A stretch of 35,673 bases of DNA. It comes from Blautia sp. (lineage in GTDB: Bacteria > Bacillota > Clostridia > Lachnospirales > Lachnospiraceae). The notes below the pieces were generated by a model. The model saw only the letters and a program-made list of their open reading frames with translations, was not told where the DNA came from and searched no databases. A program made the translations under genes and the position numbers. The stretch spans positions 1 to 35,673 of the forward strand of contig JAMPHB010000013.1 of the NCBI GenBank assembly GCA_023663685.1, read 5' to 3'. Shown piece by piece: positions 7,350-32,832 of this stretch (its first letter is position 1; each line of letters opens with the position of its first letter).

Positions 7350-8146
7350 ATCCCATCCTTCTTCCGTAAAATATCCACTGTATGCCCCGACGCGCCCATG
7401 AGCTCCATACGCTCGCAGGTCGCCAGATGATAGCGTACAAACTCCTCAAATTCATCCTCTGTCAGTGCATTTAAAAAAGGGCGAATGTAGTTCGCCGCGC
7501 CGTCCGCCGCAACAATCCGCTCCCGTATCAGTCCCGCCTCCCTATTCATTCTGTCGATATCCGACAGACGAACCATACTGTACAGCGGATTCGCCTGCTC
7601 TGTACAGTGAAATTCCTCATCCAAAAGCCCCTGCTCCCGCGCCTCTAAGATATGGCGCTCCTTAAAAGCATAGGTAATCACCGAAAACTCATTCATCACA
7701 TAGGCGGCTAAGATCCGGCCATTTTGCCTCGTCACCCGCTTCGCCTCCCCAAGAGCCTGCAGCTTGTCCTCCCATGTCTTAAGATGATACATCGGCCCAA
7801 ACAGAAGCGTCACATCAAAAGAGCCGTCCGCGAAGCGCTTTAGTCTTCTGGCGTCTCCCTGAAACGCCGACACGCCGCCGCCCTTTTTCTTAAGCCTGCC
7901 AAGATTATGCCTGACCGGCTCCACCGCAGACACCGCATAGCCCTCCTTTGCCAGCGGCACACAGTATCTTCCGGTTCCCGCGCCAATGTCAAGAACCGAC
8001 ACCTCCGCAGGCGCGCGCCCGGCGGACACCTCCTCCAGACACTTATGGATATAGCGCATACTGGTAATAAACTCCACGCGCCCGTGTCTCGTATCCAGAC
8101 GTTTTTCCTCGTTAAATTTATTATAATACGCTTCCAGCTCGGTCAT
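7346..8146 (-). CDS. class I SAM-dependent methyltransferase
   Basis: This 266 aa cytosolic protein has the Rossmann methyltransferase motifs. Motif I is VLDIGAGTGRYCVPLA (about residues 53-68), followed by an acidic end of beta-2 ('SAVEPV'), then 'FQGDARRL' and 'FDVTLLFGPMYHL'. The 'FGPMYHL' segment is common in small-molecule methyltransferases of Clostridia. The ATG at 8146 is chosen over a longer frame that starts with TTG and adds an unconserved 26 residues; its ribosome binding site is weak. It is the first gene of a three-gene minus-strand unit with capA and glgX. The substrate is not evident. Confidence 0.8.
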   Translation of the reverse strand: MTELEAYYNKFNEEKRLDTRHGRVEFITSMRYIHKCLEEVSAGRAPAEVSVLDIGAGTGRYCVPLAKEGYAVSAVEPVRHNLGRLKKKGGGVSAFQGDARRLKRFADGSFDVTLLFGPMYHLKTWEDKLQALGEAKRVTRQNGRILAAYVMNEFSVITYAFKERHILEAREQGLLDEEFHCTEQANPLYSMVRLSDIDRMNREAGLIRERIVAADGAANYIRPFLNALTEDEFEEFVRYHLATCERMELMGASGHTVDILRKKDGI

Positions 8147-17742: not shown

Positions 17743-19593
17743 TCACCTTTTTTTCTTCATATTGTACATTTCTCTGTCCGCCTGCTCCATGAGCTGGTCG
17801 AGCTTGAAATCCTCTGAGATCAGCACGGACTGGAACCCCACGCTGACACTCATTACATACTCTTTGTTATTCTGCTGCCTGTGTTCTGCAAGCTTTGGAT
17901 TTAATTTCTCCATCAGATCGTCAAACTCTGTGCCCGTCTCATTTTTGCCCAGAATCACAAACTCGTCGCCGCCGTAACGCATCAGAAGCTGGCCGTCTTT
18001 TTTGAGCTTTTTCAGCATATCGGCAACGGATTTGATGTAGAAATCCCCCTCCTCATGCCCGTAGGTGTCATTGACCGTTTTCAGGCGGTTGATATCCGCA
18101 AACAGAATTCCGATTGGAATCTCCTTTTGCCTGCACTCCTCGACGATTCTCTTTGCATAATGGAAAAATCCTGCACGGTTATAAATCTGCGTGAGGCTGT
18201 CCATCATCCAGACACGGTTCAGCTTTTTGACCAGCCTTTTTAATTTGCTCTGCCTGCGGACATTTTCCAGCGCGCTTGCTATGTTCATAAACCAGTTCTG
18301 GAACTGCGTGCTGTTATAAACCATATCGCTGCCGCACATCACCGCGTATCCCAGACAGTTTTTCCGGAAATGGAGCGGCGCGACGATGCACACCTCCCCG
18401 CGCACCTTCCTTCTGCATTCCTCCGGCAGAATCTCTCTGGACGGAAAATACGGATATTCCGTAAACATCCCCTGCTCATACGCGATGGGGATATACACGC
18501 GCTCCGTATATTCCTCCCTCTCCTGATAATCATATTCCATCTTGTCCTCCGACTCCTTTTCCTCGCAGAGGCACAGATAGGCAAAGGAAAAATCGACCAG
18601 CGCGATATGTGTCTTCAGACACTCGCAAAATTCCTCAAAGCTGTCACAGTCATTTAAATCAGAAGCCATATTTTTGTTGATATCCGCCATGGAGACGGCG
18701 GAGAGCCTGTGCATGGCATTCTGCAGCTGCAGCTTTGACGCATTATACTTGTGCCGCTCCCGGCAGCCGCAGCTTCCCCTGTAGCAATACCTCACGGAAA
18801 AAGTTCTGCTCGCCGCACAGCCCTCCGCAAGCATTTTGCACGCCTCATAACCAATCCGCTCCTGCGGCTTTTCCACCGTCGTAATTGCAGGAATCAGCTC
18901 GGCCGCGTCGGAGACATGGTCAAAACCCGTGAGCAGGACGTCCTCGCCCGGCCGTATGCCATTCCGCGCAAGCTCGGTATAGACTCCCAGCGCCATGTTG
19001 TCGTTGGCACAGACGATGGCGTCCGGCAGCCTGTCCTCTTCTACCAGAGTCCTGACAAGCGCCTCGCCGCTGTCAATCCAGTAATTGCCGTAAACAATCC
19101 GCTCGGAGGGCAGGCTGATTCCGTGCTCCTCAAGCGCCTCAAGCGCCCCCGAAAGCCGCGCGCTGCTCTCCGGGTTCTGCTTCGGGCCGGACAGATAACA
19201 GATATCCATCGCCCCGTGCGTCTCTATCAAATGGGTCAGCATCCCCTTCATCGCCTTTTTGTTGTCTACACACAGTACCGGCATTCCCGGCGTATGGCTG
19301 TCAATGCTGACAACGGGCGTCCCCGAGGCTGTAATCCGCTCGGCAATCGCCTGCGCGTGCTGCTCGCTCTGAATCGTATCCCGCACAAATACGATGCCGT
19401 CAAAGCGGCTGAAATCGGGAAGGCTGTAGATCTGGAATTCTCCAATCCCATACTCGGACTGTCTGTAGATATCGCCGTTGCAGATGAACGCAAAAATATC
19501 TATCTCCTGCTCCCTCGCATACTCCACGACTCCCTCAAGCAGCCGCTTTTGAACCTCATGTGCAATTCCTCCGATCAGTACAGCAATTTTCAT
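17743..19593 (-). CDS. cytoplasmic LacI-type sugar-sensor diguanylate cyclase (GGDEF)
   Basis: This 616 aa protein has no signal peptide or transmembrane helix. Residues about 1-275 are a LacI-type periplasmic-binding fold without the DNA-binding domain: 'IAVLIGGIAHEVQKRLLEGVVEYA', 'FDGIVFVRD', 'DAIVCANDNMALGVYTELARNGIRPGEDVLLTGFDH'. A Cys-rich 'YRGSCGC' joint and a GAF-like middle region (about 290-440) lead to a GGDEF domain (about 455-610). The GGDEF signature is intact at 541-545, so it should make c-di-GMP. No RxxD inhibitory site is seen before it (the stretch reads KDGQLLMRY), so product feedback may be absent. The ATG at 19593 has GGGGA at 6 nt and overlaps the rhamnosidase stop (ATGA). 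The likely ligand is a sugar such as rhamnose, by context. Confidence 0.88.
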   Translation of the reverse strand: MKIAVLIGGIAHEVQKRLLEGVVEYAREQEIDIFAFICNGDIYRQSEYGIGEFQIYSLPDFSRFDGIVFVRDTIQSEQHAQAIAERITASGTPVVSIDSHTPGMPVLCVDNKKAMKGMLTHLIETHGAMDICYLSGPKQNPESSARLSGALEALEEHGISLPSERIVYGNYWIDSGEALVRTLVEEDRLPDAIVCANDNMALGVYTELARNGIRPGEDVLLTGFDHVSDAAELIPAITTVEKPQERIGYEACKMLAEGCAASRTFSVRYCYRGSCGCRERHKYNASKLQLQNAMHRLSAVSMADINKNMASDLNDCDSFEEFCECLKTHIALVDFSFAYLCLCEEKESEDKMEYDYQEREEYTERVYIPIAYEQGMFTEYPYFPSREILPEECRRKVRGEVCIVAPLHFRKNCLGYAVMCGSDMVYNSTQFQNWFMNIASALENVRRQSKLKRLVKKLNRVWMMDSLTQIYNRAGFFHYAKRIVEECRQKEIPIGILFADINRLKTVNDTYGHEEGDFYIKSVADMLKKLKKDGQLLMRYGGDEFVILGKNETGTEFDDLMEKLNPKLAEHRQQNNKEYVMSVSVGFQSVLISEDFKLDQLMEQADREMYNMKKKR

Positions 19594-22139
19594 AAACATT
19601 CCCCATTTTGGTCAAAGACGTATGTTCCGCCGCCCAGCAGACGGCTTTTTCCGTTTGGAAAAATTACTTTTGCATTTGCCGGATACGGTATTTCAATCTC
19701 ATACGAAAAGCCCTTTTCCTCACTGTAAGTCCACGCGCTCCGGAATGTCCCGAATACCGATTCAAAGCTTCCCCGCACGAAAGAAAAACGCTTATCCGGC
19801 ATGGGTCTTATGGTCATCGGAACCTCCCCCGCCATCTCCGGCAGAAATCCGCACATATAGCGGTACATCCAGTCTGCGATACTGCCGTATGCGTAATGAT
19901 TCAGGCTGTTCATTCCCATATCGCTGATGACGCCGTTTTCATCCAGCGAATTCCATCTCTCCCACACCGTCGTCGCACCCAGATTGACCTCAAAGAGCCA
20001 GCCCGGATACTCCTCATTCAAAAGCAGGTCGTAGGCGAGTGTGTTGAGTCCGTTCTCCGACAGCGCGGGACACAGCACCGGCGTTCCGACAAATCCGGTA
20101 TTCAGATGCCCGTTGTTTTCTTCAATCAGCCGCTTTAACTCCGCCACCAGCCAGTCCTTCGCATGTTCCGGGTACAGCCCTGTATACAGCAGAAATGCAC
20201 ATGCGGTCTGCGTCGTCCCAATTCTCAGCTGCCCCTCCTCTGTAAAATAAAACCGGAGAAAAGCGTTTCGGATATTTTCCGCCACCGTCCGGTAAGTCTC
20301 CTCCTCCGACTCAAGCGCGAGCACAGCGGCCGCCTTCGCCAGCGTCACCGTGGACAGATAGAACCATGCGGACGCCAGAAAACCGCTGTCCGTCTTTCCG
20401 ATGGGATTGCAGATATTGCCATTGTCCAGCGCGAGCCAGTCTCCCAGCTGCATATCGTTCTGCCACAGCCAGGGCGTATCGTTCTGCTCCGCTCTCCCCC
20501 GCACATAGTCCACCCACAGCTTCATCATCGGATACTGCTCCTGCAGCATACTGACATCGCCGTAATACTGGTACAGATTCCACGGAAGCATCGTCGCCAC
20601 GTCCGCCCACGCGCAGGCGCCGCCGTCCCGGTAGAACGGGTTGGTATTTTCCTTAAGCGGCACTTTCGGGCGCGGGGAGAAAAAGGGAACCGCACCGCCC
20701 AGCAGCTTCTGCTCCGGGTACAGGCTTCTCGTATAATGTCTGAAAAATGCGCTGCTGTCCATATGGAAGCACGCCGTCGGCGCGAAGATATTCGCATCTC
20801 CCGTCCAGCCCATGCGCTCGTCCCTCTGCGGACAGTCCGTGGGGATATCTAAAAAATTGCACTTCTGCGAGCGGAGCGTGTTGGCAAACAGCTTATTTAC
20901 CTTTTCATTGGAGGTCTCGATTTTCCCGGTCTGCTCGATATCCGACATGATGCGGTATGCGCGGAAAGAAAGCTCCTGCCCTTCGAAAAGCCCTTCCAGC
21001 CGGACATAGCGGAAGCCGTAAAAGGTAAAGTGCGGGCGCACCGTTTTGTTCACGCCGTCGGAGATATAGACAAACTCCGCCTTCGCCGTCCGCAGGTTGT
21101 CCCGGAAAAACTTCCCGTCCTGCAGCACTTCCCCGTACAGGAGCCGAATCTGCTGCCCCCGCTTTAGCTGTCCCGTAAACTCGACCCATCCGGTGATGGC
21201 CTCGCCGAAGTCCAGCAGCATTCCGTCCTGCTCCGCTTTTTTCGATACCGGTGAAAATTCCTCCACCTTCCGCAGCGGGGGATTGGAGCGCTCCGTCAGA
21301 AGTTCCGTGCCATCCGGCAGCACTTCAACGGTAAGCGGAAGCTCCTCCCATGTATCGTTCTGCCACTCGCCGTCGTAAATCCCGTTCGCTCCGATGGTTC
21401 CCGTATGCGCCGACCAGAGTCCGTCCGTGACAAGCTGCTGTTCTTTTCCCGTCCCGTCCTCCCAGATGAGTTCCGCGATACATTTCTTTCTGTCCCCGTA
21501 CAGATCCAGGTACACATCGTCAAAGCCGAATCTTCCCTTGTACCAGCCCTCTCCCAGCAGAATTTCTATGCGGTTTTCGCCGCCCTGTAACAGCTCTGTG
21601 ACGTCAAAGGTCTGGTACTCCATCAGAAAATCATAGGAGTGGTAGCCCGGCAGCAGATATTCGTCGCCCGCCTTCTGCCCGTTTATATTTACCTCGTAGA
21701 GTCCAGCTCCGAAGATATAGAGCCTCGCCTTTTTTGCCGGCTGCGGTACAAAAAAATCACGGTACAGAACCGGCATCCGCTCCCTGTCCTCCGCCACAGA
21801 GATAAATTCCGCGTTCCATGGCTCCCCGCGCTTTGCCGTCTCAAACCATGCCGTCCCGCTCTCCACCGTCCCGGACGCTGTCTGCGCCGTCACTTTCCAG
21901 AAATAGCGGGTGCGGGCACGCAGGGCAAGCGGGATTCTCAGCTGGCACTGCATAAAGCCGCTCATCATGCCGCTGTCATAGACAGGGATGCGCATATCCT
22001 CTGTCTCCGATACCGTAATCTGCACACCGGAGAGAATGTCCGCGCCGACGTCCGTGAGTCTCCATGACAAGACCAGATACGGCAGGTCGCTGCCAAGCGG
22101 ATTTTTCATATGGTTCGTTCTTAAATGTGTGATTTTCAT
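19590..22139 (-). CDS. GH78 alpha-L-rhamnosidase, cytosolic
   Basis: This 849 aa enzyme would release terminal L-rhamnose from rhamnosides. N-terminal beta-sandwich domains (to about residue 330, with 'YHSYDFLMEYQTFDVTELLQGGENRIEILLGEGWY') precede the (alpha/alpha)6 barrel. The GH78 signature DCPQRDERMGWTGDA carries the acidic catalytic cluster (Asp440-Glu441 in 'DER'). 'TTVWERWNSLDENG' is the second conserved acidic segment, and a C-terminal beta domain closes the protein. There is no signal peptide, so the substrate must be imported first. The ATG at 22139 is preferred to the GTG at 22145, because AAAGGG is 8 nt upstream of the ATG. Its stop overlaps the diguanylate cyclase start by 4 bp, and it lies 34 bp after the GH3 gene. 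Confidence 0.92.
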   Translation of the reverse strand: MKITHLRTNHMKNPLGSDLPYLVLSWRLTDVGADILSGVQITVSETEDMRIPVYDSGMMSGFMQCQLRIPLALRARTRYFWKVTAQTASGTVESGTAWFETAKRGEPWNAEFISVAEDRERMPVLYRDFFVPQPAKKARLYIFGAGLYEVNINGQKAGDEYLLPGYHSYDFLMEYQTFDVTELLQGGENRIEILLGEGWYKGRFGFDDVYLDLYGDRKKCIAELIWEDGTGKEQQLVTDGLWSAHTGTIGANGIYDGEWQNDTWEELPLTVEVLPDGTELLTERSNPPLRKVEEFSPVSKKAEQDGMLLDFGEAITGWVEFTGQLKRGQQIRLLYGEVLQDGKFFRDNLRTAKAEFVYISDGVNKTVRPHFTFYGFRYVRLEGLFEGQELSFRAYRIMSDIEQTGKIETSNEKVNKLFANTLRSQKCNFLDIPTDCPQRDERMGWTGDANIFAPTACFHMDSSAFFRHYTRSLYPEQKLLGGAVPFFSPRPKVPLKENTNPFYRDGGACAWADVATMLPWNLYQYYGDVSMLQEQYPMMKLWVDYVRGRAEQNDTPWLWQNDMQLGDWLALDNGNICNPIGKTDSGFLASAWFYLSTVTLAKAAAVLALESEEETYRTVAENIRNAFLRFYFTEEGQLRIGTTQTACAFLLYTGLYPEHAKDWLVAELKRLIEENNGHLNTGFVGTPVLCPALSENGLNTLAYDLLLNEEYPGWLFEVNLGATTVWERWNSLDENGVISDMGMNSLNHYAYGSIADWMYRYMCGFLPEMAGEVPMTIRPMPDKRFSFVRGSFESVFGTFRSAWTYSEEKGFSYEIEIPYPANAKVIFPNGKSRLLGGGTYVFDQNGECL

Positions 22140-22173
22140 ATCCACCGCCCTTTTCTGCTGTATTCTACAGCCC

Positions 22174-23856
22174 TTAATATGCCAGCTCTTTTCTCCCGCA
22201 GAACGGGTCTACCGGATTTTTCCCTTTAAACTCACTCTTTCCGGTAATCTTATCCGCCACAGAGCTGATGACATATTCGTTGTTGGAGTAACAGTTTATG
22301 TAGGTCTTTATCATCGGCACGTCCAGCAGATGGTAGGGATTCGCCAGGCTGATAAACAGCACCGGAACCTCGTCGGCAAACCACGGCACGTTGTTTCCCT
22401 GCCCCCAGAAGGTGTACCAGTTCAGCCGGTTCGTAGTCTTATTGCTCGCGTTCTCCACATTGCCAATGTAAATGACTAAATCATATTTTTCCTTAAAGCT
22501 TTTTACATTGTCCACGCCCATCTCAAAGTTTTCCTTCTCGTAGGCGGACACCTGAAAGCCCCGTTTCTCAAGCTCTTTTTTCATCTGCCCCAGCACGCGC
22601 TCATTGGACGGGAAATCCCCCATAATCTCAAGCAGCACATACGGATATTTCTCCGCGCTTATGGGAAGCAGCTCCTGCGTATCCTTCACCAGCGTAATCG
22701 ATGCGTCCGCCAGCTCCTTTGCCCACCGCACATGCTGGTTACACCTTAAGAGATTCATATCCGCATCCGCCGGAACCAGCGTTCCCGCCGCACTGCGCTC
22801 GTGCAGCCCCAGCGCCGCCTTCATGGCGAGGATTCTGCGGTTCGCATCGTTTAAGCGTTTCTCTGACAAAAGTCCGCTTTTGTATCCCTCCATCATAAAA
22901 TCAAAATCCTCGGTCAGATCCTTATTGAACAAGAACATATCGCAGCCGCTCTCAATCGCAAACGGCACGGATTTCTCTCTTGCCATCGCAGAGGTAAAGC
23001 CGACCATCGGCGTTGCGTCCGTGATGATGAGCCCGTTAAAGCCAAGCTTCCCCCGCAGCAGGTTGCCGAGAAGCTCCTTTGACAGGGTCGCCGGAATGAT
23101 TCTTCCGGCGCTCTCACTATTATAATATTCCTGATATGCCGGCATTGCAATATGACCGGCCATCACGGAGAGCGCCCCGTCGTCGATCAGTTTTTTGTAC
23201 AGCTCTCCAAAGCTGCTGTCCCACTCCTCCATCGTCAGGCTGTTGACAGATGTGAGCAGATGCTGGTCGCGCTCGTCCACGCCGTCTCCCGGGAAATGCT
23301 TGATGGCCACGGCGACATTGCACTCGGATGCGCCCCGCATATATTCCCGCGCACAGTTATAAACGGTTCCGGAATCGCTCCCGTAGGTTCTCACGTTCGT
23401 GATGGGATTGTGGTAGTTCATGTCGATATCAACGACCGGGGCAAAGGCCCAGTTGATCCCGAGCGCCGCCGCTTCGCTGCAGGCGATTTTCCCGAGCCGG
23501 TAGGCATATTTTGCGTCTCCTGCCGCCGCGCACGCCAGCTGTTTTCCGTAAGGGGTTCCGTCTGTCGCCGCCCCGTCGCCGCCCGCCTCCAGATTCGACG
23601 GAATCAGCAGCGGAATCCGGGAATGCGTCTGCGCATACGCAAAGGTTCTTTTCATCTCCTCGCCAACGCCGTCACGGAAGAACAGCCCGCCTATGTGAAA
23701 GTTCAGCAGCATATCCAGATACTCCGGCTCTGTCGAATAGCCGATCGGGCAGAAGAGCTGTCCGATTTTTTCCTCCAGCGTCATTTTGCCAAGGGTCTGC
23801 TCTACCCACGCAATGTCCGCGTCATTTAAATTAAAAGGCTTCTTTTTCAGGTCCAT
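22174..23856 (-). CDS. GH3 enzyme of the NagZ-like Asp-x-His class, possible beta-glucoside phosphorylase
   Basis: This 560 aa cytosolic protein has two domains: a GH3 TIM barrel (about residues 1-345) and a GH3 C-terminal alpha/beta domain. The motif KHFPGDG-VDER-DQH aligns position by position with the NagZ signature KHFPGHG-xxxx-DSH, so the Asp197-His199 dyad is the acid/base instead of the Glu of ordinary GH3 beta-glucosidases. The nucleophile is the Asp of 'IITDATPM' (about residue 280). It departs from true NagZ in GDG for GHG and DQH for DSH. Published work on Cellulomonas fimi Nag3 linked this dyad to retaining phosphorolysis giving beta-sugar-1-phosphates. The gene follows pgmB by 43 bp, which supports a beta-glucoside phosphorylase. 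Plain beta-N-acetylhexosaminidase is the alternative. The start at 23856 has GAGG at about 6 nt. Confidence 0.8.
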   Translation of the reverse strand: MDLKKKPFNLNDADIAWVEQTLGKMTLEEKIGQLFCPIGYSTEPEYLDMLLNFHIGGLFFRDGVGEEMKRTFAYAQTHSRIPLLIPSNLEAGGDGAATDGTPYGKQLACAAAGDAKYAYRLGKIACSEAAALGINWAFAPVVDIDMNYHNPITNVRTYGSDSGTVYNCAREYMRGASECNVAVAIKHFPGDGVDERDQHLLTSVNSLTMEEWDSSFGELYKKLIDDGALSVMAGHIAMPAYQEYYNSESAGRIIPATLSKELLGNLLRGKLGFNGLIITDATPMVGFTSAMAREKSVPFAIESGCDMFLFNKDLTEDFDFMMEGYKSGLLSEKRLNDANRRILAMKAALGLHERSAAGTLVPADADMNLLRCNQHVRWAKELADASITLVKDTQELLPISAEKYPYVLLEIMGDFPSNERVLGQMKKELEKRGFQVSAYEKENFEMGVDNVKSFKEKYDLVIYIGNVENASNKTTNRLNWYTFWGQGNNVPWFADEVPVLFISLANPYHLLDVPMIKTYINCYSNNEYVISSVADKITGKSEFKGKNPVDPFCGRKELAY

Positions 23857-23899
23857 ATTTTCCTCACATTCTATAGACTGCTGCTCCGTCACAACGCGT

Positions 23900-24538
23900 C
23901 TACTTTACAATCTCCACTAAGTCACTAAAGGTTTTCATTCCGTATGTCACATGCTCACATGACGCCGCTTCTCCCAGACCCGCGCTGTCAAAGCCTCCGG
24001 CACACGCCGCCTCGATTCCGGCCTTTGCATCCTCGACGACGAGGCATGTTCCCGCTTCCAGATGTAAAAACTCCGCCGCCTTTTCAAATACCTCGGGGTC
24101 GGGCTTTGAGCGCGCGATATTGGTGCCGTCGCTCACCGCGTCAAAATAATCCTTTACGCCCAGCCGCGTTAAGATATATTTTGCATTTTTGCTGGAAGAG
24201 CCGATGGCCAGCTTTACGCCCCGCGCCCTCAGTTTATCCAGCGTATCCTTCACCTCCGCGGATAAATCTTTTTCCGACATCTGAGAAAGCAGCTCCACAT
24301 ACAGCCTGTTTTTCCGTTCCGCCAGCTTCTGCTTTTCCCCGTCTGTCAGCGTCCCGTCGTATCTCTCGAGAATAATCTCAAGGCTTTCCATGCGGCTGAC
24401 GCCCCGGAGCCGGTTGTTGATTGTCTCGTCAAAATAGACGCCCAGCTCATCCGCCATGCTTTTCCATGCCTGATAATGATACTTGTCTGTGAAGCAGATC
24501 ACCCCGTCCAGATCAAAAATAACTCCCTGATATTTCAT
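23900..24538 (-). CDS. pgmB: beta-phosphoglucomutase
   Basis: This 212 aa HAD-superfamily enzyme interconverts beta-D-glucose-1-phosphate and glucose-6-phosphate in the cytosol. Nucleophile and acid/base Asp9 and Asp11 sit in 'FDLDGV', and 'FTDKYHYQAWK' supplies the Thr17 and His21 equivalents of Lactococcus PgmB. 'LRGVSRMESLE' is the cap-domain substrate loop, 'GSSSKNAKYIL' the Ser and 'SKPDPEVF' the Lys, and 'VVEDAKAGIEA' the Mg-binding Glu-Asp. All key residues are present and the length is close to the usual 220 aa. It overlaps the permease stop (TAATG) and is followed by the GH3 gene. PgmB normally partners a phosphorylase; no classical GH65 or GH94 phosphorylase is in the window, which points to the GH3 enzyme. 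Confidence 0.92.
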   Translation of the reverse strand: MKYQGVIFDLDGVICFTDKYHYQAWKSMADELGVYFDETINNRLRGVSRMESLEIILERYDGTLTDGEKQKLAERKNRLYVELLSQMSEKDLSAEVKDTLDKLRARGVKLAIGSSSKNAKYILTRLGVKDYFDAVSDGTNIARSKPDPEVFEKAAEFLHLEAGTCLVVEDAKAGIEAACAGGFDSAGLGEAASCEHVTYGMKTFSDLVEIVK

Positions 24539-25539
24539 TATTTACCGTCCTTATTTTTATTGATATATTTTTTTAATGTGACAAGCTCTATCACCTTGTT
24601 TTCGTTGTTCAGATAAATCAAAAATCCTACCAGAATAAGCGCCGTTATAATCTGCTGCACGGACGCGTCCACATTCAGTCTCGCATAGGTCAGCGAGATA
24701 AACGCCGTCGTGACTGCACCGAGCAGATAACCGATTTTTTCATTGCAGAATCTTCCGATAAAACCGCCGATGAACATCGGTAAAAATGCTGTGAACATGA
24801 CGCCGATGGAACCAAAGTTCAGCGCCATCTGTATCGTGCCCGTGTTGGTCGCACTGATGAATCCGACCACGCCCATCAGAGCACCCGCAATCGTGTAGCA
24901 GGCTACGGCATTCGGAATCTCCCGGATTCCTGTATTGACAGATACCTTCTGCCCGGAAAGCAATGCCTTGTACTCATAGCCAAACTGCGTATAATCAAAG
25001 AGGAAGATAAATATGAGCAGGCCAAATACGATCACAAGCAGATAATTGACTACGCCCGGGAAGCTTGTAAGCTCCTGATTTGCCACAAAGGATACGCCGT
25101 AGCCGCTTGTGACTGCAAATGCAAGACCTTCGTAAAACAGCGCAACACCGAGGGAGACAATGATCGGCGGCAGCTTCACAATCACATAGACTGCGCCTGA
25201 TATAAGGCCTAATACTGCGCCTGCCGCAATGGATATGATCAGCATGACAGAGGTAGGAAGACCTGCCGCTGTACAGATGGATGCGCTGATCACTGACGAT
25301 AAAAGTGAGATTGAGCCGATTGAAAAATCAAATCTTCCGCTGTTTAAGTTCAGTGACAGTGCAAAGGTTGTAAGCATAACGGATGCTGTCGCCCTGAAAA
25401 ACAGTATCCAGTTTCCTTCTGTCTCGAATAAGCTGACTCCCCGCATTCCGCAGAGAACAAGCATGATCAGAAGGGTCGCTACGGGGATTCCCGCGATCCC
25501 GCCTATTTTTTTAAAAACTCCTGTTGTATTTGTTTTCAT
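24538..25539 (-). CDS. sugar ABC transporter permease (RbsC/RhaP-type)
   Basis: This 333 aa integral membrane protein of the BPD_transp_2 family has about 8-10 hydrophobic segments. Typical markers are 'ALSLNLNSGRFDFSIGSISLLSSVISASI' and 'GFISATNTGTIQMALNFGSIGVMFTAFLPMFIGG', matching ribose/rhamnose-type permeases. It would form half of the import channel with the permease at 26935-27894. A GAGG ribosome binding site precedes the ATG at 25539, and its stop overlaps the pgmB start. The transported sugar is not fixed by sequence; the operon suggests a rhamnoside. Confidence 0.88.
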   Translation of the reverse strand: MKTNTTGVFKKIGGIAGIPVATLLIMLVLCGMRGVSLFETEGNWILFFRATASVMLTTFALSLNLNSGRFDFSIGSISLLSSVISASICTAAGLPTSVMLIISIAAGAVLGLISGAVYVIVKLPPIIVSLGVALFYEGLAFAVTSGYGVSFVANQELTSFPGVVNYLLVIVFGLLIFIFLFDYTQFGYEYKALLSGQKVSVNTGIREIPNAVACYTIAGALMGVVGFISATNTGTIQMALNFGSIGVMFTAFLPMFIGGFIGRFCNEKIGYLLGAVTTAFISLTYARLNVDASVQQIITALILVGFLIYLNNENKVIELVTLKKYINKNKDGK

Positions 25540-25616: not shown

Positions 25617-26879
25617 TTACATGTTTTGAATTTCCTCAAAGCTGTACTTAGATACAAATTCTTCAAATGTTTCATAATCTGCCGTCAACAATGTGTCCAA
25701 TAATTCCTTTGTGTAAGCGGGCGCATCCACGCTGCTGTCCACTGCATAATATGTATTGAATTCGTCCGCGCTGGTTGCGATCCAGTAGCCCTGGCTTAAC
25801 GCGAGCGCGCCGCCGTCCTTTGCGCGGAGCGGAGAGCCGAGTGCTGCCCTGTAGGCTGCGATAAAGATGGGTCCGATGCTGGCAGAGAATTTTCCTGCCA
25901 GATAATCAAGCATTCCAGCCTCCATCGCCTCGCCGTAGCTGCTTGCATATGCGTCCACACTCGCAATCTTTACATCTGTTCCCGCGATTGCCGTTCCAAA
26001 GAAATCGGAGCCGTTGCCCACTGCAAGAATGGCCTGCAGATCCGGCGTCTGCGCCATCTGCGCACATTTTCCAAACCACGCGTCGTCCATGTCATAACCA
26101 CCTACATAGCCCAGAATGTTAATGCTTCCAATCTCCCCTGTCTTTACCTCGCCGTCCGCAAAAATCTGTCCGACGATCGCATCCCTTTCGGTTGCTCCCT
26201 GATAATTCGCGCCGTCTCCTCCGGCCTCCACCATGGCGGCGATCATTCCTGCCGCACGGTAGATGTGCATCTCTGTGTAGTAAGGAATTGCCCCGCCGAA
26301 GATTGCAAAGTTTGTCATGCCCTGATCCAGATAATGCTTTGCCATTTCGTATCCGGTGTCATACTCTACATCCAGGGACGGTCCTACCGCGCCCACATAG
26401 TGCTCATAGCCCTTGTAGATCTCGTACTCCTCCGCTGTCAGTGTACCGGTCGCCACTGCGTAGTACACGCCCGCCTCGTCGCACTGCTCAAGCTGCGCCG
26501 CGCGGTCAAAGGACGAGAAGGAGATAATCGCCTTACAGTTGTTGGTGATAAATGTGTCGATTGCTGAGGTCTCGCCCGCTGCGTCTGTCAGCTCGTCCGA
26601 GTAGATCAGCTCTACATTGTACTGCTTCTGGATATACTCGGTATAGTAGGTGCGGAATGCAAGCGCCTCCGCCGAAGTCGCGTCGGATACCAGAATTCCC
26701 ATCTTCACCTTCTCGCTCATGTCGAGCTCTGACTGCTCCTGCTGTACGTCGCTTCCGCCGCCCGCGCTCTGTGTACCACCCGCGCTGTTTCCGCCTGAAC
26801 CTGTACCTCCGCCGCCGCAGCCGGCCAGCATGGTGACGGTCATGGCCGCCGTTAATAGTAATGCCCAAACTTTTTTCAT
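25617..26879 (-). CDS. sugar ABC transporter substrate-binding lipoprotein
   Basis: This 420 aa protein has a lipoprotein signal with lipobox LAGC (Cys21), then a Gly/Ser-rich linker (to about residue 50) and a two-lobed binding fold: 'KMGILVSDATSAEALAFRTYYTEYI', 'NCKAIISFSSFDRAAQLEQCDEAGV', 'AIFGGAIPYYTEMHIYRAAGMIAAMV' and 'LQAILAVGNGSDFF'. It is longer than and diverged from the classic RhaS/RbsB binding proteins, so its ligand may be a disaccharide or glycoside rather than a free monosaccharide; this is inference. It lies between the two permease genes, an unusual order. AGGAGG-type sequence precedes the start. Confidence 0.85.
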   Translation of the reverse strand: MKKVWALLLTAAMTVTMLAGCGGGGTGSGGNSAGGTQSAGGGSDVQQEQSELDMSEKVKMGILVSDATSAEALAFRTYYTEYIQKQYNVELIYSDELTDAAGETSAIDTFITNNCKAIISFSSFDRAAQLEQCDEAGVYYAVATGTLTAEEYEIYKGYEHYVGAVGPSLDVEYDTGYEMAKHYLDQGMTNFAIFGGAIPYYTEMHIYRAAGMIAAMVEAGGDGANYQGATERDAIVGQIFADGEVKTGEIGSINILGYVGGYDMDDAWFGKCAQMAQTPDLQAILAVGNGSDFFGTAIAGTDVKIASVDAYASSYGEAMEAGMLDYLAGKFSASIGPIFIAAYRAALGSPLRAKDGGALALSQGYWIATSADEFNTYYAVDSSVDAPAYTKELLDTLLTADYETFEEFVSKYSFEEIQNM

Positions 26880-26934: not shown

Positions 26935-27894
26935 TTACCTTGGAAGCATTTTCCCTCTCTGGTCGCTGGTTGCAAGGAATACCACCAGAAGGAAAATTGC
27001 CGCCTTTACCATCTGTCCGATTCCGGAGTTCAGATTAAACATCACCATAATCTGGCTTAATAATGTCATGGAAAATGCACCGATGACTGCCGCATAGATT
27101 TTACTTCTCGCACCGCCGGATACCGGCATTCCTCCAAATACAATCGCGATGATGACGTCCATTCCCACGCTGGATGCTGTGTTCTTGGTCAGGGTGGGGG
27201 CGTATACGATGGAGAGGAAAGCGCCGAGTCCCGCACCTATTCCTGATAGAGCAAATGCAATGACCGCCATCTTCTTTTCCGACACGCCGCTCAGCTTCGC
27301 GCAGACGGGATTGCCTCCCTGAAATTTCTGCATACGCCCGATCTTTGTAAAGCTGAATACCACCACGCAGATGACCACGAACAGCACCAGCACTGCGATT
27401 TTAAACGGTGTATTGTTCAACGGCTTTACCGCCGCCGACGGCACTGCAATCTCGGAACCCGTTCCGTTTACCTTGATCAGTACCAACACCAGAGCGTTTA
27501 ACACGCTCAGCATGGCGATTGTCGTGACAAAGACCGGCAGGTTGAACACGGAGGCGAGCACCGAGTTGAACAGTCCCACGAACACCGCGACGCCGATACA
27601 CACGAGTGCCATCACCCATAGGTTTTCGGTTTTGTTATAGACCATTCCTCCAATCAGCGCGCTCACTGCCACGGAGGCGCCAAGGCTGATATCGAAGGAG
27701 CCCAATGTATAGATAAATATGGCTCCCGTAGCTACGACCGCCACGACCACGGACTGGTTGATAATGTTCTTCATGCCGTATCCGATATTGATATCCTGCA
27801 TCGTACCGATAATCAGAAATGCGATAAACAGTGCGGCCAGTCCGAACAGCGGAGTCAGATTCATTATGTATTTTTTTAATTTGTAATTTTTCAT
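26935..27894 (-). CDS. sugar ABC transporter permease (RbsC-type)
   Basis: This 319 aa integral membrane protein of the BPD_transp_2 family carries 'IYTLGSFDISLGASVAVSALIGG', 'LNALVLVLIKVNGTGSEIAVPSAAVKPL' and 'GMDVIIAIVFGGMPVSGGARSKIYAAVIGAF', the conserved coupling-loop region of ribose-type permeases. It starts 13 bp after the ATPase stop with an excellent GGAGG. With the other permease it suggests a heterodimeric channel rather than the single-permease layout of ribose importers. Confidence 0.88.
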   Translation of the reverse strand: MKNYKLKKYIMNLTPLFGLAALFIAFLIIGTMQDINIGYGMKNIINQSVVVAVVATGAIFIYTLGSFDISLGASVAVSALIGGMVYNKTENLWVMALVCIGVAVFVGLFNSVLASVFNLPVFVTTIAMLSVLNALVLVLIKVNGTGSEIAVPSAAVKPLNNTPFKIAVLVLFVVICVVVFSFTKIGRMQKFQGGNPVCAKLSGVSEKKMAVIAFALSGIGAGLGAFLSIVYAPTLTKNTASSVGMDVIIAIVFGGMPVSGGARSKIYAAVIGAFSMTLLSQIMVMFNLNSGIGQMVKAAIFLLVVFLATSDQRGKMLPR

Positions 27895-27907: not shown

Positions 27908-29428
27908 CTAAATCATGTACTGGATAATATCCGACTCACTCAGTGTACTGCTTCTCGGAAACTCTTTTTTAATCTCTCCGTCCTTCATAATAATCAGCCG
28001 GTCTGACATTCCAATCAGCTCCGCCATCTCCTCGGAGATGATGATGATGGATTTTCCTTCCTTCTTCATCTGGTACATGAGCTGGTACATGGCCTGCTTT
28101 ACACCGATATCCACGCCTCTGGTCGGACAGTCGAGAATCAGAATCTCGCTTCCGCGTCCAATCCATTTTCCAAACACGACTTTCTGCTTGTTTCCTCCCG
28201 AGAGCGCCGATACATACTGGTTCATCTCCGCACACTTGATACTCAGATCGCCAATCTGTTTCTGCACATATTTCTTTTCCTTCCCGGGAAGCACCCAGAA
28301 ATTACGGGCCGCAAAGCGGTTGAAGCCGCCAATGGCAATGTTGTCGCGGATACTCGCGTTCAGGCAGAGGGATTCAGTGTCCCTGTCCTTTGCCGCGTAG
28401 CCGACCTGCTCCTTCATGGCGCCCGCTTCATTCTTTAGTTCCTTCCCGCGGATTCTGACGCTTCCGGCCTCGGGCTTTGCCGCTCCGAAGAGCACCTTGC
28501 CGAGGGTATGCATACCACAGTGGGAAAGTCCCCCGACGCCTAAAATCTCGCCCTTATGTATCTGCAGGTTAAAGTCTTTTAACTGGTCGCCGAGACTGAC
28601 TCCCTTTAACTCCATGACAACCTCGCTGCCAAAGCTTCCGTCGTAATCGCTGCGGTAATAATCTCCCTGCATCTCCCTGCCGATCATGCTGGTCTTGATG
28701 CGCTCCTCGTCAAATTCCTCCCTAGCGAAGGTCACGATGATCTTTCCGTCTCTAAGCACGGTGAGCGCGTCGCAGACATTCATAATCTCGTCCAGGTCGT
28801 GGGAGATAAAGACGACCGCCTTGTTCTCCTCTTTCATCTGCTCCATAATCTTGTAGATGATGTCGCGCCCAATCTGTGAGAGCGCCGTCGTCGTCTCGTC
28901 CACCACCAGAAGCTGCGGCTTCTTTGCCATGATTCTTGCAATCTCGATCAGCTTTCTGTCCTGCATATCGAGCATTGCCGTCATCTGCCCCGCCCTGATG
29001 TGGGATGCGCCGATGGCGTCCAGCGCCTGCTGCGCCTTTTCCAGCATCTCTTTTCTGCTGACAACGCCCCATTTCTTTCCCTCGTTTCCCCAGACCTTAA
29101 AACGGTCCGTCTCCCCGAGAAAGATGTTCTCCGCGACGGTGATACCCGGCACGGTTCCGTTCTCCTGCACGATCATGCCGATGCCCCTTTCTAAGGCCCA
29201 GAGCATCGATACCGGCTCCCATTTCTTTCCCTCGTAGAACATCTCTCCCGCATCCGCCTTCTGCATACCGGATATGATGGAGGTCACTGTAGATTTGCCG
29301 GAGCCGTTCTCCCCGATCAGGCCCTGAATCTCGCCCCGCCGGATTTCAATACTGACATTGTCGAGGGCAACCGTTGAGCCAAAACGTTTGTCCATGTTTT
29401 TTACTTCGACGATCACATTTTTTCCCAT
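27908..29428 (-). CDS. sugar ABC transporter ATP-binding protein (RbsA/MglA-like, double ATPase)
   Basis: This 506 aa cytoplasmic protein has two fused ATPase domains. Domain 1 (about residues 1-245) has an intact Walker A GENGSGKST and Walker B 'LLVVDET', but its signature loop reads 'MTAMLDMQDRKL' and lacks LSGGQ. Domain 2 (about 260-506) has the reverse: the Walker A position 'GGLSHCGMHTLGK' lacks GKS/T, while the signature LSGGNKQ is perfect. Together they build one complete catalytic site, as is common in sugar-type double ATPases. It is the first gene of the importer/rhamnoside operon and is divergent from an AraC regulator. Confidence 0.92.
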   Translation of the reverse strand: MGKNVIVEVKNMDKRFGSTVALDNVSIEIRRGEIQGLIGENGSGKSTVTSIISGMQKADAGEMFYEGKKWEPVSMLWALERGIGMIVQENGTVPGITVAENIFLGETDRFKVWGNEGKKWGVVSRKEMLEKAQQALDAIGASHIRAGQMTAMLDMQDRKLIEIARIMAKKPQLLVVDETTTALSQIGRDIIYKIMEQMKEENKAVVFISHDLDEIMNVCDALTVLRDGKIIVTFAREEFDEERIKTSMIGREMQGDYYRSDYDGSFGSEVVMELKGVSLGDQLKDFNLQIHKGEILGVGGLSHCGMHTLGKVLFGAAKPEAGSVRIRGKELKNEAGAMKEQVGYAAKDRDTESLCLNASIRDNIAIGGFNRFAARNFWVLPGKEKKYVQKQIGDLSIKCAEMNQYVSALSGGNKQKVVFGKWIGRGSEILILDCPTRGVDIGVKQAMYQLMYQMKKEGKSIIIISEEMAELIGMSDRLIIMKDGEIKKEFPRSSTLSESDIIQYMI

Positions 29429-29544: not shown

Positions 29545-29573
29545 TTGACATACTTTGACTAACATGTTAATAT
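29545..29573 (+). promoter_or_regulatory. promoter of the AraC gene at 29624
   Basis: A perfect -35 TTGACA (29545-29550) and -10 TAATAT (29568-29573) are 17 bp apart. TTGACATAC and TTGACTAAC repeat at a 10-bp step across the -35, a possible regulator contact. The 13-mer ATGTTAATATTGT (29564-29576) recurs after this gene. Confidence 0.6.
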
Positions 29574-29623
29574 TGTTATATAAAAACTGTTCATTTTTGA
29601 TTTTTATTTTTGGGAGGCGCGTG

Positions 29624-30670
29624 ATGGAGTATGAGACGCTGAAAAGTGAGATCTATAAGCTGAACGAGGACGAGCTGTTTTACCGCAAGTACTACTACGC
29701 GAAGCAGCAGGAATATTCTCTGGAAAAGTTTCTCGCGGAGCTGGATTTAAACCAGGTGCATGAGAGGAATCTTCTTGTCCCGGAAATCAAAAGCACCATT
29801 CCCCTGCAGTATGAGGACTGGTTCTATTTTGACCCCGCAGAGCGCACCTCGATCGTCACCATGCGGCACAACCGCTATTCCCCCCCTATCGAGCATGACC
29901 ACACGTTCTTTGAGGTTATTTATGTCTACGACGGTGCCTGCAAACAGACCATCAGCGGCAATACGCACAATCTGTCCACGGGTGATATCTGCATTATCCC
30001 GCCCAAAATCAAGCATGCGGTCAGTGTGTTTGACGAGAGCATCGTCTTTAACTGTCTGATAAAAAAAAGCGCGCTGCACAATATTTTCTTTAATTTTTTG
30101 AGTAACGCGAATGTTCTCTCTGCCTTCTTTTTAAATAACATCTATTCTGAGAACGGGAACGATTATATTATTTTCCATACGGGAAACGATTATGAGATTA
30201 AGCGCGGCGTCCTCTATATGTACTGGGAGTCCCTAAACCGCTCTCTCTACTGGGATCAGATGATCTCCTACACGCTGATGCTGATATTCGGGCTTCTGAT
30301 CCGCAACTATGAGAAAAGTATAGAAGTGCCCACCTTCACGCAAAAAGCAGATGTGCAGCGCTATGCCCTGCTGCAGTTCATTCAGGACAATTTCGCCAAT
30401 GTAACCTTAGAGCAGATTGCGGAAAAATTCCACTATACGCCAGAGTACACCTCCCGGCTGATCAAGTCTACCACCGGGAAGTCCTTTACCCGGCTCGTAC
30501 AGCAGGTACGTCTGGAAAAAGCACAGGTGCTTCTCCAGGATACAAATCTCTCTGTCACAAATATTGCGAATCAGGTGGGCTATGAAACTACAGAATATTT
30601 TATCCGTCTCTTTAAGAGGCAGATGCATATGACGCCGACAGAATATCGAAGGAGAGGAATTATTATCTGA
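29624..30670 (+). CDS. AraC family regulator with cupin sensor
   Basis: This 348 aa transcription factor has an N-terminal cupin-like domain (about residues 60-170, 'RHNRYSPPIEHDHTFFEVIYVYDGACKQTISGNTHNLSTGDICIIPP') and a C-terminal pair of helix-turn-helix motifs (about 245-345): 'NVTLEQIAEKFHYTPEYTSRLIKSTTGKSFT' and 'VTNIANQVGYETTEYFIRLFKRQMHMTPTEYRR'. The ATG at 29624 has GGGAGG about 6 nt before it; the longer frame starts inside the promoter. It is divergent from the importer operon and is its likely activator. The cupin domain would bind a sugar; which one is not visible. Confidence 0.9.
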   Translation: MEYETLKSEIYKLNEDELFYRKYYYAKQQEYSLEKFLAELDLNQVHERNLLVPEIKSTIPLQYEDWFYFDPAERTSIVTMRHNRYSPPIEHDHTFFEVIYVYDGACKQTISGNTHNLSTGDICIIPPKIKHAVSVFDESIVFNCLIKKSALHNIFFNFLSNANVLSAFFLNNIYSENGNDYIIFHTGNDYEIKRGVLYMYWESLNRSLYWDQMISYTLMLIFGLLIRNYEKSIEVPTFTQKADVQRYALLQFIQDNFANVTLEQIAEKFHYTPEYTSRLIKSTTGKSFTRLVQQVRLEKAQVLLQDTNLSVTNIANQVGYETTEYFIRLFKRQMHMTPTEYRRRGIII

Positions 30671-30721: not shown

Positions 30722-31549
30722 TTATTTTTCATATAAGAATTTCTCCGGCAGCGTCACACTAAAGTCCTTCGCCAGATCGCGGAAATTCTGCGGCGTGATG
30801 CTCTGCAGCTTCTCCGGCCGCATGGAGAGCATCTTCACAAGGATCTCTGCGGATTTTTCTACTGTGTGCATCAGGCCGAAGGTCAGATCGAAGTCCTCAC
30901 CCGACGCAAACATGCCGTGATGTGCCCAGACTGCAACGTCATACTGCTTCATCAGTTCACTGGTCGCTACGGCGATGTCCCTGCCGCCCGGCACCATCCA
31001 GCCCACGACGCCGATTCCGTCCGGGAATACGACCGGACACTCGGTCGCCATCTCCCAGAGCTCCCTTGTAAATACCTTATCCTCAAGCGGCAGCACGAAG
31101 GTGAGCGCAATCACATTGGTGGTGTGCGCGTGGTAGATCACGCGGTGCGTGCCATTCGTCGCCAAGAGCTTCACCTCATGGTTCATCAGATGGCTCGGCA
31201 GCTCGCTGGTCGGTCTGCCGCCGTTCACCAGCCCCCAGCAGATACGGTACTTCTCGCCCTTTTCATCTATCTCCACGATTGCAAGCGAGTCCCCGGGGTC
31301 TAAAATGACATTGCGGAAATACTTGCCGCTGCCGGTCGCTAAGAAATACTCTCCCGCCAGCTTCGGCACGGACGTTCCGATTTCGCTCCATTCACCGTCT
31401 GTTTTCAGCTCTTCCCTGACGGCCTCCACTTCCTCCTTTTTGATGCGGTAGGTCAGATTTCCGCCGTTTCTCTCATGCCAGCCCTGCTCCCAGCCGTCGT
31501 TGCACATACGGATAAAGCCCTGCACAAATTTTGCTTCTAATACCTTCAT
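30722..31549 (-). CDS. rhaD: rhamnulose-1-phosphate aldolase
   Basis: This 275 aa class II aldolase cleaves L-rhamnulose-1-phosphate into dihydroxyacetone phosphate and L-lactaldehyde. It is one residue longer than the E. coli enzyme, and the key residues align with an offset of one: catalytic Glu116 ('TSELPSH') and zinc ligands His140, His142 ('YHAHTTN') and His211 ('WAHHGMF'). It is the last gene of rhaBAD, 23 bp after rhaA. Its stop lies 51 bp from the convergent AraC gene. Confidence 0.96.
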   Translation of the reverse strand: MKVLEAKFVQGFIRMCNDGWEQGWHERNGGNLTYRIKKEEVEAVREELKTDGEWSEIGTSVPKLAGEYFLATGSGKYFRNVILDPGDSLAIVEIDEKGEKYRICWGLVNGGRPTSELPSHLMNHEVKLLATNGTHRVIYHAHTTNVIALTFVLPLEDKVFTRELWEMATECPVVFPDGIGVVGWMVPGGRDIAVATSELMKQYDVAVWAHHGMFASGEDFDLTFGLMHTVEKSAEILVKMLSMRPEKLQSITPQNFRDLAKDFSVTLPEKFLYEK

Positions 31550-31572: not shown

Positions 31573-32832
31573 TTAACCACGTTTACTGAGCACCTCGTCC
31601 TCATATTTTTTCACTTCGCCGAATATCTCAAAATCGCCGGGGACGCCGCTCTTTTCACAGTAATAATTCCACACATCTCCAAACGGCAGCATTTTCACCG
31701 CCTCCTGCACTGCCATCAGCTCTGTAAAACGGCTCTCGTCCTGCAGGCGCTTAAGCGTCTCATTCGGCGTGCACAGCGCCATCATCAGCGCCTTCTGGAA
31801 GCTTCTCATACCGACTGCCCACGCGGATACACGGTTGATGCTCGCATCAAAATAGTCCAGCGCGATATAGACGCGCTCCAGCGCATTACAGCGCACAATC
31901 TCTTTGGCAATCTCCTTTGTCTCATCGTCCAGAAGAAGCACATGGTCAGAATCCCAGCGGACGCCTCTGGTCACATGGAGCGCAATCTCCGGGTAAAAGC
32001 AGAGCATCGCCGGAATCTTGTCCGACACATACTCCGTCGGGTGGTAATGCCCGTTATCCATGAGCGGCAGACAGCCGTCGTTCATGGCCGCCATGGAAAG
32101 CGCAAACTCTGCGGAGCCCGCGGTGTAGGATTCCACGCCGATTCCGAATACCTTGGATTCCACGCACGGCTTTACCTTATCCTTGTCAAACGGCTCGGCA
32201 AGAATCTGCTCGATGGAATCCTTGTAGCGCATTCTCGGCCCCATGCGGTCTGCCGGCACGTCCTTGAAGCCGTCCCCCGTCCAGATATTCATTACGCATG
32301 GAACGCCGGTCTCCTCGGCAAAATACCGGGAGATGCGGATGCAGGCTTTTCCGTGCTCAATCCAGAAGCGGCGCACCTCCTCGTCCGGGCTGGAGAGCGT
32401 CAGCCCGTCCTTCACCATCGGGTGGGAGAAAAATGTCGGGTTAAAATCCAGCCCCATGCCCCGTTCCTTTGCAAATTCCACCCATTTTGCAAAATGCTTC
32501 GGCAGAAGCTTATCCCGGTCGGCGGACTCGCCCCCGTCAAAAATCGCATAGCAGGCGTGGACATTGATTTTCTTTTTGCCCGGAATCAGGGAAATCGCCT
32601 TGTCCATATCCGCCATCAGCTCCTGCGGCGTCCTCGCTTTTCCCGGATAATTTCCGGTTGTCTGAATTCCGCCTGTCAGCGGCCCCTCGTGGTCAAAACC
32701 GATCACATCATCTCCCTGCCAGCAATGCATGGAAACGGGCACTGTTTTGAGCGCTTCAAGCGCCGCGTCCGTATCCACCCCGACTGCCGCAAACGCTTCC
32801 TTTGCGGCTGCATACCTTTCTGTTGTTGTCAT
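31573..32832 (-). CDS. rhaA: L-rhamnose isomerase
   Basis: This 419 aa cytosolic metalloenzyme isomerises L-rhamnose to L-rhamnulose. The length equals that of E. coli RhaA. Recognisable segments are 'VPVSMHCWQGDDV', 'INVHACYAIFDGG', 'GLDFNPTFFSHP', 'MNIWTGDGFKD', 'MDNGHYHPTE' and 'RWDSDHVLLLDDET', which supply the Glu/Asp/His metal and substrate ligands of the barrel. It follows rhaB by 11 bp in the same transcript. Confidence 0.97.
   Translation of the reverse strand: MTTTERYAAAKEAFAAVGVDTDAALEALKTVPVSMHCWQGDDVIGFDHEGPLTGGIQTTGNYPGKARTPQELMADMDKAISLIPGKKKINVHACYAIFDGGESADRDKLLPKHFAKWVEFAKERGMGLDFNPTFFSHPMVKDGLTLSSPDEEVRRFWIEHGKACIRISRYFAEETGVPCVMNIWTGDGFKDVPADRMGPRMRYKDSIEQILAEPFDKDKVKPCVESKVFGIGVESYTAGSAEFALSMAAMNDGCLPLMDNGHYHPTEYVSDKIPAMLCFYPEIALHVTRGVRWDSDHVLLLDDETKEIAKEIVRCNALERVYIALDYFDASINRVSAWAVGMRSFQKALMMALCTPNETLKRLQDESRFTELMAVQEAVKMLPFGDVWNYYCEKSGVPGDFEIFGEVKKYEDEVLSKRG

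Follow-up and report, generated by a model that had tools for sequence, protein, structure and literature searches.

Which enzyme supplies a beta-phosphoglucomutase (PgmB) of Blautia sp. with its substrate, beta-glucose 1-phosphate (beta-Glc-1-P)? In the stretch of 35,673 nucleotides analysed here (contig JAMPHB010000013.1, assembly GCA_023663685.1; hereafter the window), pgmB is followed by a gene for a glycoside hydrolase family 3 (GH3) protein. We put at roughly 0.8 the probability that this protein is a cytosolic BglP-type retaining beta-glucoside phosphorylase feeding PgmB of the same operon, with a small rhamnosylated beta-glucoside as the probable donor. If so, a sugar compound of plant type would be cut by phosphate and not by water, and the product would pass straight into energy metabolism, presumably at a saving of ATP. 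A preliminary description of this DNA had already proposed that phosphorolysis yields beta-Glc-1-P, which PgmB would convert to glucose 6-phosphate (Glc-6-P). Sequence comparison lends good support to that core prediction, both through the grouping of the GH3 protein with BglP and through the recurring adjacency of the two genes. The features concerned are as follows.

22174..23856, minus strand: predicted retaining beta-glucoside phosphorylase, a GH3 protein of BglX/BglP type; 560 aa if translated from ATG
23017..23019, minus strand: Asp280 (in IITDAT), presumed catalytic nucleophile, invariant in the alignment
23281..23301, minus strand: KHFPGDG segment, GH3 residues 186-192, placed by alignment
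23260..23268, minus strand: Asp197-Gln198-His199, His/Asp acid/base dyad, role by homology to BglP and Nag3 as treated in part of a review (PMC8950772)
23900..24538, minus strand: PgmB, beta-phosphoglucomutase, 212 aa, overlapping the upstream permease gene by 1 bp

The longest GH3 frame is open to GTG 23892 (572 aa, 7 bp after pgmB). The likelier start is ATG 23856, which has GAGGA just 5' of it and whose Met is retained in 14 of 17 aligned genomic rows; N-terminal of it, the alignment shows clear similarity in two related loci only (L003 and L004). With this start the gap to pgmB is 43 bp and the motif is numbered D197-Q198-H199, which confirms the gap and the DQH motif given in the preliminary description. 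D197, H199 and D280 are invariant across 16 aligned GH3 rows, and D280 is presumed to be the nucleophile, as in GH3 enzymes generally. The protein matches Pfam Glyco_hydro_3 (PF00933) at 193.7 bits (cut-off 27). Its best solved relative is 5VQD/5VQE, 'beta-glucoside phosphorylase BglX' (BglX/BglP, AUG44408.1, from a metagenomic library; E 1.8e-142, 478.9 bits), with which it shares 45% identity over nearly the full length, the KHFPGDG...RDQH pattern and the same part of the GH3 tree described below, where 5VQD nests among PgmB-linked rows. By sequence, the GH3 protein is grouped with the reported phosphorylase BglP. Its own setting is an operon with PgmB, a GH78 rhamnosidase and an AraG-like transporter. 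The kind of enzyme is already known; the genomic evidence is the new addition. The beta-N-acetylglucosaminidases NagZ, LpqI and YbbD share the GH3 domain. YbbD, whose D-x-H aligns at the same place, scores far below 5VQD against the window protein (E 1.6e-49, 172 bits) and has DQEGG and KHFPGHG...DSH where the latter has NLEAGG and KHFPGDG...DQH.

The neighbouring gene was rightly named pgmB: its product passes the NCBIfam equivalog model TIGR01990 with 233.2 bits (cut-off 189.4). In an alignment of 13 it carries the DxDG motif, the cap His and the RGVSR and SSSKN segments, whose functional roles we assume to be those familiar from this enzyme. All 13 aligned GH3-linked homologues match TIGR01990 at E <=0.001. 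By eye, neither the GH3 nor the PgmB N-terminus resembles a signal peptide, as had been stated before. In another GH3 locus (L067), a divergent PgmB (7360-8022, minus strand) lies 11 bp from the GH3 frame, scores 189.3 bits, at the TIGR01990 cut-off, and has the motif FGLDG, with Gly in place of the expected nucleophile Asp; the same GH3 gene also has an ordinary PgmB about 5.4 kb away.

The dyad, which the preliminary description took as the mark of a phosphorylase, is presumably also carried by LpqI. According to the part of the LpqI report that deals with this point, that protein, 'authentic NagZ-type' for its authors, showed hydrolysis and no phosphorolysis under the Nag3 conditions, a second negative case is cited, and reports disagree on whether such GH3 enzymes phosphorolyse (PMC6572805). 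The dyad is thus insufficient alone, and the phosphorylase case must therefore rest on the closest relative and on context. A 2022 review, in the section concerned, gives BglP and Nag3 as the only characterised GH3 phosphorylases, attributes the conversion of beta-glycosides to beta-glycosyl phosphate by a few GH3 members to the His/Asp acid/base, and lists both beta-N-acetylglucosamine 1-phosphate (beta-GlcNAc-1-P) and beta-Glc-1-P as BglP donors (PMC8950772). Nag3 of Cellulomonas fimi, a beta-N-acetylglucosaminide phosphorylase, resembles the predicted window enzyme as a reported phosphorylase with a His acid/base and differs in its preferred reaction, given in the same section as cleavage of GlcNAc-anhydro-N-acetylmuramic acid (PMC8950772); it was set beside the window by description only. 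In the open-licence literature, which excluded the primary papers on BglP and Nag3, no description of a route pairing PgmB with a GH3 or a rhamnosidase, or of its coupling to rhamnosides, was recognised.

The recurrence of pgmB beside GH3 genes with the D-x-H motif, for which the preliminary description had suggested looking, is borne out in several samples. The window GH3 protein, used to scan named genomes, gave 29 loci, which are related and not independent (L030 and L031 come from one genome), and PgmB lay near GH3 within the stretch in 26 of them. Of the three others, L018 and L021 are truncated at contig ends, and in L015 the absence is genuine. PgmB is directly upstream of GH3 in the closest loci. 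Elsewhere it lies downstream, after a rhamnosidase of different architecture (PF21104 + PF17389; four such genes were scanned), and in Ohessyouella blattaphilus a short-type rhamnosidase and PgmB form one 709-aa frame (L017, 9717-11846, plus strand) whose PgmB domain passes TIGR01990. Since the placement of PgmB and the type of rhamnosidase vary among loci, the PgmB-GH3 pair survives both rearrangement and replacement of the rhamnosidase.

A family sample of 250 genomes, one per genus by tally, was then searched with a GH3 profile (A2; 18 rows including 5VQD; E <=1e-80), which gave 69 matches in 46 genomes. Beta-phosphoglucomutase above the TIGR01990 cut-off was present in 41 genomes (62 copies among the matches listed) and both occurred together in 26 (nominal Fisher p = 6e-13). 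Of the 69 GH3 matches, 19 had a mutase gene no more than 10 kb away: 16 of 33 scoring above 600 bits, 2 of 31 at 400-600 and 1 of 5 below. All GH3 genes (PF00933) of the 41 mutase genomes, 287 after merging pieces, served as control, and 19 of 42 A2-type genes were within this distance as compared with 4 of the 245 others (nominal Fisher p = 1.3e-14), one of the four being a GH3-PgmB fusion. The p values are nominal because the genomes are related. Chance linkage of pgmB and GH3 was rejected on both genome co-occurrence and the 10-kb control, and the linkage is specific to the A2-type group. A class-wide sample of 341 genomes contained 15 with a GH3 match, 12 of them outside the family; three of these 12, from three families (L145, L146, L151), have PgmB above the TIGR01990 cut-off within 10 kb, and one (L148) has nearby the HAD protein described below.

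PgmB also works in GH65 pathways, whose phosphorylases are the usual source of its substrate beta-Glc-1-P. As far as the relevant part of one paper goes, GH65 phosphorylases act with inversion on alpha-glucosides, turning alpha-glucobioses into beta-Glc-1-P, and other inverting phosphorylases act on beta-glycosides (PMC8626586); the latter should therefore yield the alpha phosphate. In contrast, the predicted GH3 route would retain the configuration of beta-glucosides. The earlier statement that no GH65, GH94 or GH112 gene is present holds for GH65, which gave no match (PF03632) in the window genome, a draft 81.8% complete; GH94 and GH112 were not searched for. The same search in the 41 mutase genomes placed 29 of the 62 mutase copies near GH65 only, 19 near an A2-type GH3 only, one near both and 13 near neither (within 10 kb, among the matches listed). 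Twelve of these 13 were inspected in their flanking stretches, the remaining one being the fusion. In L160 a GH3 fragment of A2 type at the contig start precedes PgmB by 1.8 kb, an interval that includes a 589-aa frame, and L167 has PgmB between a short rhamnosidase gene and genes for RhaB (just below cut-off), RhaA and RhaD (above cut-off); the other ten showed no such partner in the stretches inspected, where most neighbours are not annotated. A2-type GH3 was found in 11 of the 12 mutase genomes without a GH65 match versus 15 of the 29 with one (p = 0.03).

In a tree of 65 PgmB domains, 29 GH65-linked and 24 GH3-linked, the two kinds are intermixed. The GH3 label has to change at least 8 times to fit the well-supported branches; on the whole tree it needs 15 changes, compared with 19.6 for shuffled labels, and 12 of 500 shuffles came as low. 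A PgmB subfamily exclusive to GH3 was not found on this tree. The same mutase seems to have been recruited repeatedly beside GH65 or GH3, as expected if both enzymes supply beta-Glc-1-P. The repeated pairing, also where no GH65 was found, offers evolutionary evidence for beta-Glc-1-P as the natural product, as well as many candidate enzymes, named strains (Agathobacter ruminis JK623, Ohessyouella blattaphilus PAL227) and a likely substrate class. The fusion is a 759-aa frame (L122, 7988-10267, minus strand) joining a GH3 of another branch (KHYPGFGASPVDSH; GFG...DSH type) to PgmB (TIGR01990, 230.1 bits); a search for further fusions gave an uninterrupted match to both domains only in G161 of the 250 genomes. 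The fusion gene adjoins a glucuronate isomerase gene.

To place the GH3 proteins themselves, we used 67 stretches covering the 68 non-window family matches, one for the fusion and 14 around class-wide matches. The resulting quick tree, with support from the Shimodaira-Hasegawa-like approximate likelihood ratio test only, has 82 rows (80 from stretches, the window and 5VQD); it has no hydrolase outgroup and leaves out matches below 290 bits or 450 aa, among them the fusion and three short pieces. An uncharacterised HAD protein lies no more than 10 kb away in 33 rows, all of which fall inside one 44-row clade (support 100) without a single PgmB-linked row; all 21 PgmB-linked rows lie outside it. 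The enclosing branch has 73 rows, and its other 29, which we call the PgmB part, do not form a supported clade of their own. Neither partner is near the nine outlying rows, eight of which have NQH. Of 33 HAD genes, 27 lie within 300 bp of GH3 and 32 share its strand; for PgmB the figures are 9 and 19 of 20. The preliminary description had read the changes from GHG to GDG and from DSH to DQH as marking a shift from GlcNAc to glucose. This has to be given up: some members of the PgmB-less sister clade have GDG...DQH as well, BglP donors include beta-GlcNAc-1-P in the review section cited above (PMC8950772), and a GFG...DSH GH3 is fused to PgmB.

The preliminary description had also left unused what the locus itself offers on the substrate, namely a rhamnosidase and rhaBAD. 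The neighbouring genes are these.

17743..19599, minus strand: fusion of a LacI-type ligand domain with GGDEF (diguanylate cyclase), in the late part of the operon (Pfam)
19590..22145, minus strand: alpha-L-rhamnosidase of family GH78, 851 aa, with no signal peptide evident by eye (Pfam)
24538..25539, minus strand: ATP-binding cassette (ABC) permease 2, BPD_transp_2 (Pfam)
25617..26879, minus strand: putative substrate-binding lipoprotein, lipoprotein-like N-terminus by eye
26935..27894, minus strand: ABC permease 1, BPD_transp_2, AraH-like (Pfam, NCBIfam)
27908..29428, minus strand: ABC ATPase, AraG/RbsA-like, under the cut-offs of those models (Pfam, NCBIfam)
29555..30670, plus strand: AraC-family regulator, divergent from the operon (Pfam)
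30722..31549, minus strand: RhaD rhamnulose-1-phosphate aldolase (PRK03634, 325.2 bits, cut-off 170)
31573..32832, minus strand: RhaA L-rhamnose isomerase (PRK01076, 624.4 bits, cut-off 572)
32844..34253, minus strand: RhaB rhamnulokinase (TIGR02627, 528.9 bits, cut-off 527.95)

The apparent minus-strand operon runs from the ABC ATPase through permease, binding protein, permease, PgmB, GH3, GH78 and LacI/GGDEF genes to a methyl-accepting chemotaxis protein, named from its sequence; intergenic distances range from a 10-bp overlap to a 77-bp gap with the GH3 start at ATG 23856. At E 0.001 neither Pfam nor NCBIfam has a match for the putative binding lipoprotein, whereas its operon neighbours give good ones. 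A sigma-70-like site (29522-29495) lies 5' of the ATPase gene, as a consensus match only (23 sites versus 11.6 in shuffles). RhaD, RhaA and RhaB, past the AraC gene, are each above a curated NCBIfam cut-off. Neighbours of the tree rows were counted as BLAST matches within 10 kb to one or two representatives per family: a rhamnosidase is near 15 of 27 PgmB-part rows versus 2 of 44 HAD-clade rows, and an AraG-like ATPase near 14 of 27 versus 2 of 44.

GH78 within the operon, together with rhaBAD close to it, makes a rhamnosylated beta-glucoside the probable substrate. A small compound of this kind would be imported by the AraG/RbsA-like ABC transporter, GH78 would free L-rhamnose from it, and the rhamnose would be used through RhaA, RhaB and RhaD. 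The glucosyl group of the exposed beta-glucoside would then become covalently bound to D280 of GH3; the dyad of His199 and Asp197, replacing the usual carboxylate, would let phosphate attack and beta-Glc-1-P leave, which PgmB would turn into Glc-6-P.

Several observations weigh against this scheme. Fifty of the 69 family GH3 matches, mostly in the sister clade, are not within 10 kb of a mutase gene; 8 of the 12 GH3 genomes outside the family have neither partner nearby, five of these being distant rows; and 7 of 27 PgmB-part rows have no PgmB in the stretch, six of them with a contig end within 6.3 kb and one (L063) a real miss. The search for residues separating PgmB-part from HAD-clade GH3s gave only three conservative columns at 75% on both sides. 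Since BglP accepts GlcNAc donors, glucose specificity rests on PgmB. Moreover, NagZ-type GH3s can be pure hydrolases, to judge from the cited portion of the LpqI report (PMC6572805), where LpqI hydrolyses, unlike the predicted window enzyme. The GH3 protein might likewise be an ordinary retaining hydrolase, a beta-glucosidase or beta-N-acetylglucosaminidase, with PgmB serving another source of beta-Glc-1-P; its nearest NCBIfam model is indeed the NagZ-type PRK05337 (beta-N-acetylhexosaminidase), though the score of 99.5 bits stays below the cut-off, 207. We consider this unlikely, as phosphorolysis is reported for the closest solved relative, the window draft yielded no GH65 in the 82% it covers, and the pgmB linkage singles out this GH3 group among the GH3 genes of the same genomes.

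Still less credible is that PgmB acts in a route based on a GH65 alpha-glucosyl-rhamnose phosphorylase, lost from the genome or missing from the draft, with GH3 incidental. The incompleteness of the draft would allow it, G231 has GH65 no more than 10 kb from GH3, and G192 has a fragment of GH65 beside GH3, which also counts among the points against GH3 phosphorolysis; however, the PgmB-GH3 pair persists through the rearrangements described, 19 mutase copies among the matches listed are near GH3 and not GH65, and 11 of the 12 mutase genomes without GH65 have the GH3. For the rhamnoside as substrate, the absence of rhaA, rhaB and rhaD within 10 kb of all 27 PgmB-part rows is a difficulty and implies that the rha neighbours are not generally kept; one or two of the three genes were seen in 5 of the 29 named loci (L006, L007, L009, L010, L020; flanks <=8 kb). 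AraG/RbsA-type transporters, in addition, usually carry monosaccharides and would poorly fit a bulky flavonoid diglycoside. A small sugar would suit the transporter better, and the gene content (GH78, rhaBAD) leaves the order of cleavage unfixed, so that a variant with the same chemistry can be considered, in which beta-glucose caps L-rhamnose or a rhamnose-containing oligosaccharide and GH3 acts first, GH78 second. We regard it as possible but somewhat doubtful; a plain beta-glucosyl-rhamnose disaccharide, for one, would not need GH78.

The HAD protein of the sister clade is found by profile search in 41 copies (one in two pieces) in 35 of the 250 genomes, 31 copies being within 10 kb of such a GH3. 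It occurs together with A2-type GH3 in 29 genomes (nominal p = 2.5e-20) and without it in six. Counted over whole genomes and at any distance, each of the 46 with the GH3 has the mutase (17), the HAD protein (20) or both (9). A single representative passes HAD_2, a generic Pfam model, and no NCBIfam cut-off, and neither the protein nor its profile matched a PDB chain. It retains the DxD, S, K and GD..GD positions, so that phosphoryl chemistry is likely. HAD-clade rows have GH2 nearby in 21 of 44 cases versus 2 of 27 in the PgmB part, and UxuA (12 rows), UxaC (7) and a mannitol-dehydrogenase-like gene (7) near HAD-clade rows versus none in the PgmB part. It is tempting to suggest, with the balance of probability about even, that DxH GH3 phosphorylases form a two-branch system, each branch with its own HAD-family enzyme: PgmB (BglP, window) or the A3 HAD protein (DSDGCAxD), which would rearrange or dephosphorylate the beta-glycosyl phosphate made by GH3, partly beside glucuronate-pathway genes. 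Gene position would thus predict the role of an unstudied HAD family, which would then be a new beta-sugar-1-phosphate mutase or phosphatase. A close relationship of this HAD protein to PgmB was considered and rejected (profile comparison probability 1.3%, over part of the core only). An example copy is found in L086 (10704-11555, plus strand; motif DSDGCAxDxMxxKH), and its 'TRGINRF' resembles the 'LRGVSR' of PgmB by eye, which we note as a lead only.

Named relatives of the window genome are mostly Lachnospiraceae metagenome-assembled genomes (MAGs). L003 (94% identical GH3), L014 and L028 share the gene order; the first two are from MAGs titled Muribaculaceae and the third from one titled Bacillus, the others being mostly Lachnospiraceae; binning or labelling errors are possible for these three. 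The LacI-GGDEF fusion gene, after which chemotaxis-receptor-like genes come in the window, is kept in many close loci.

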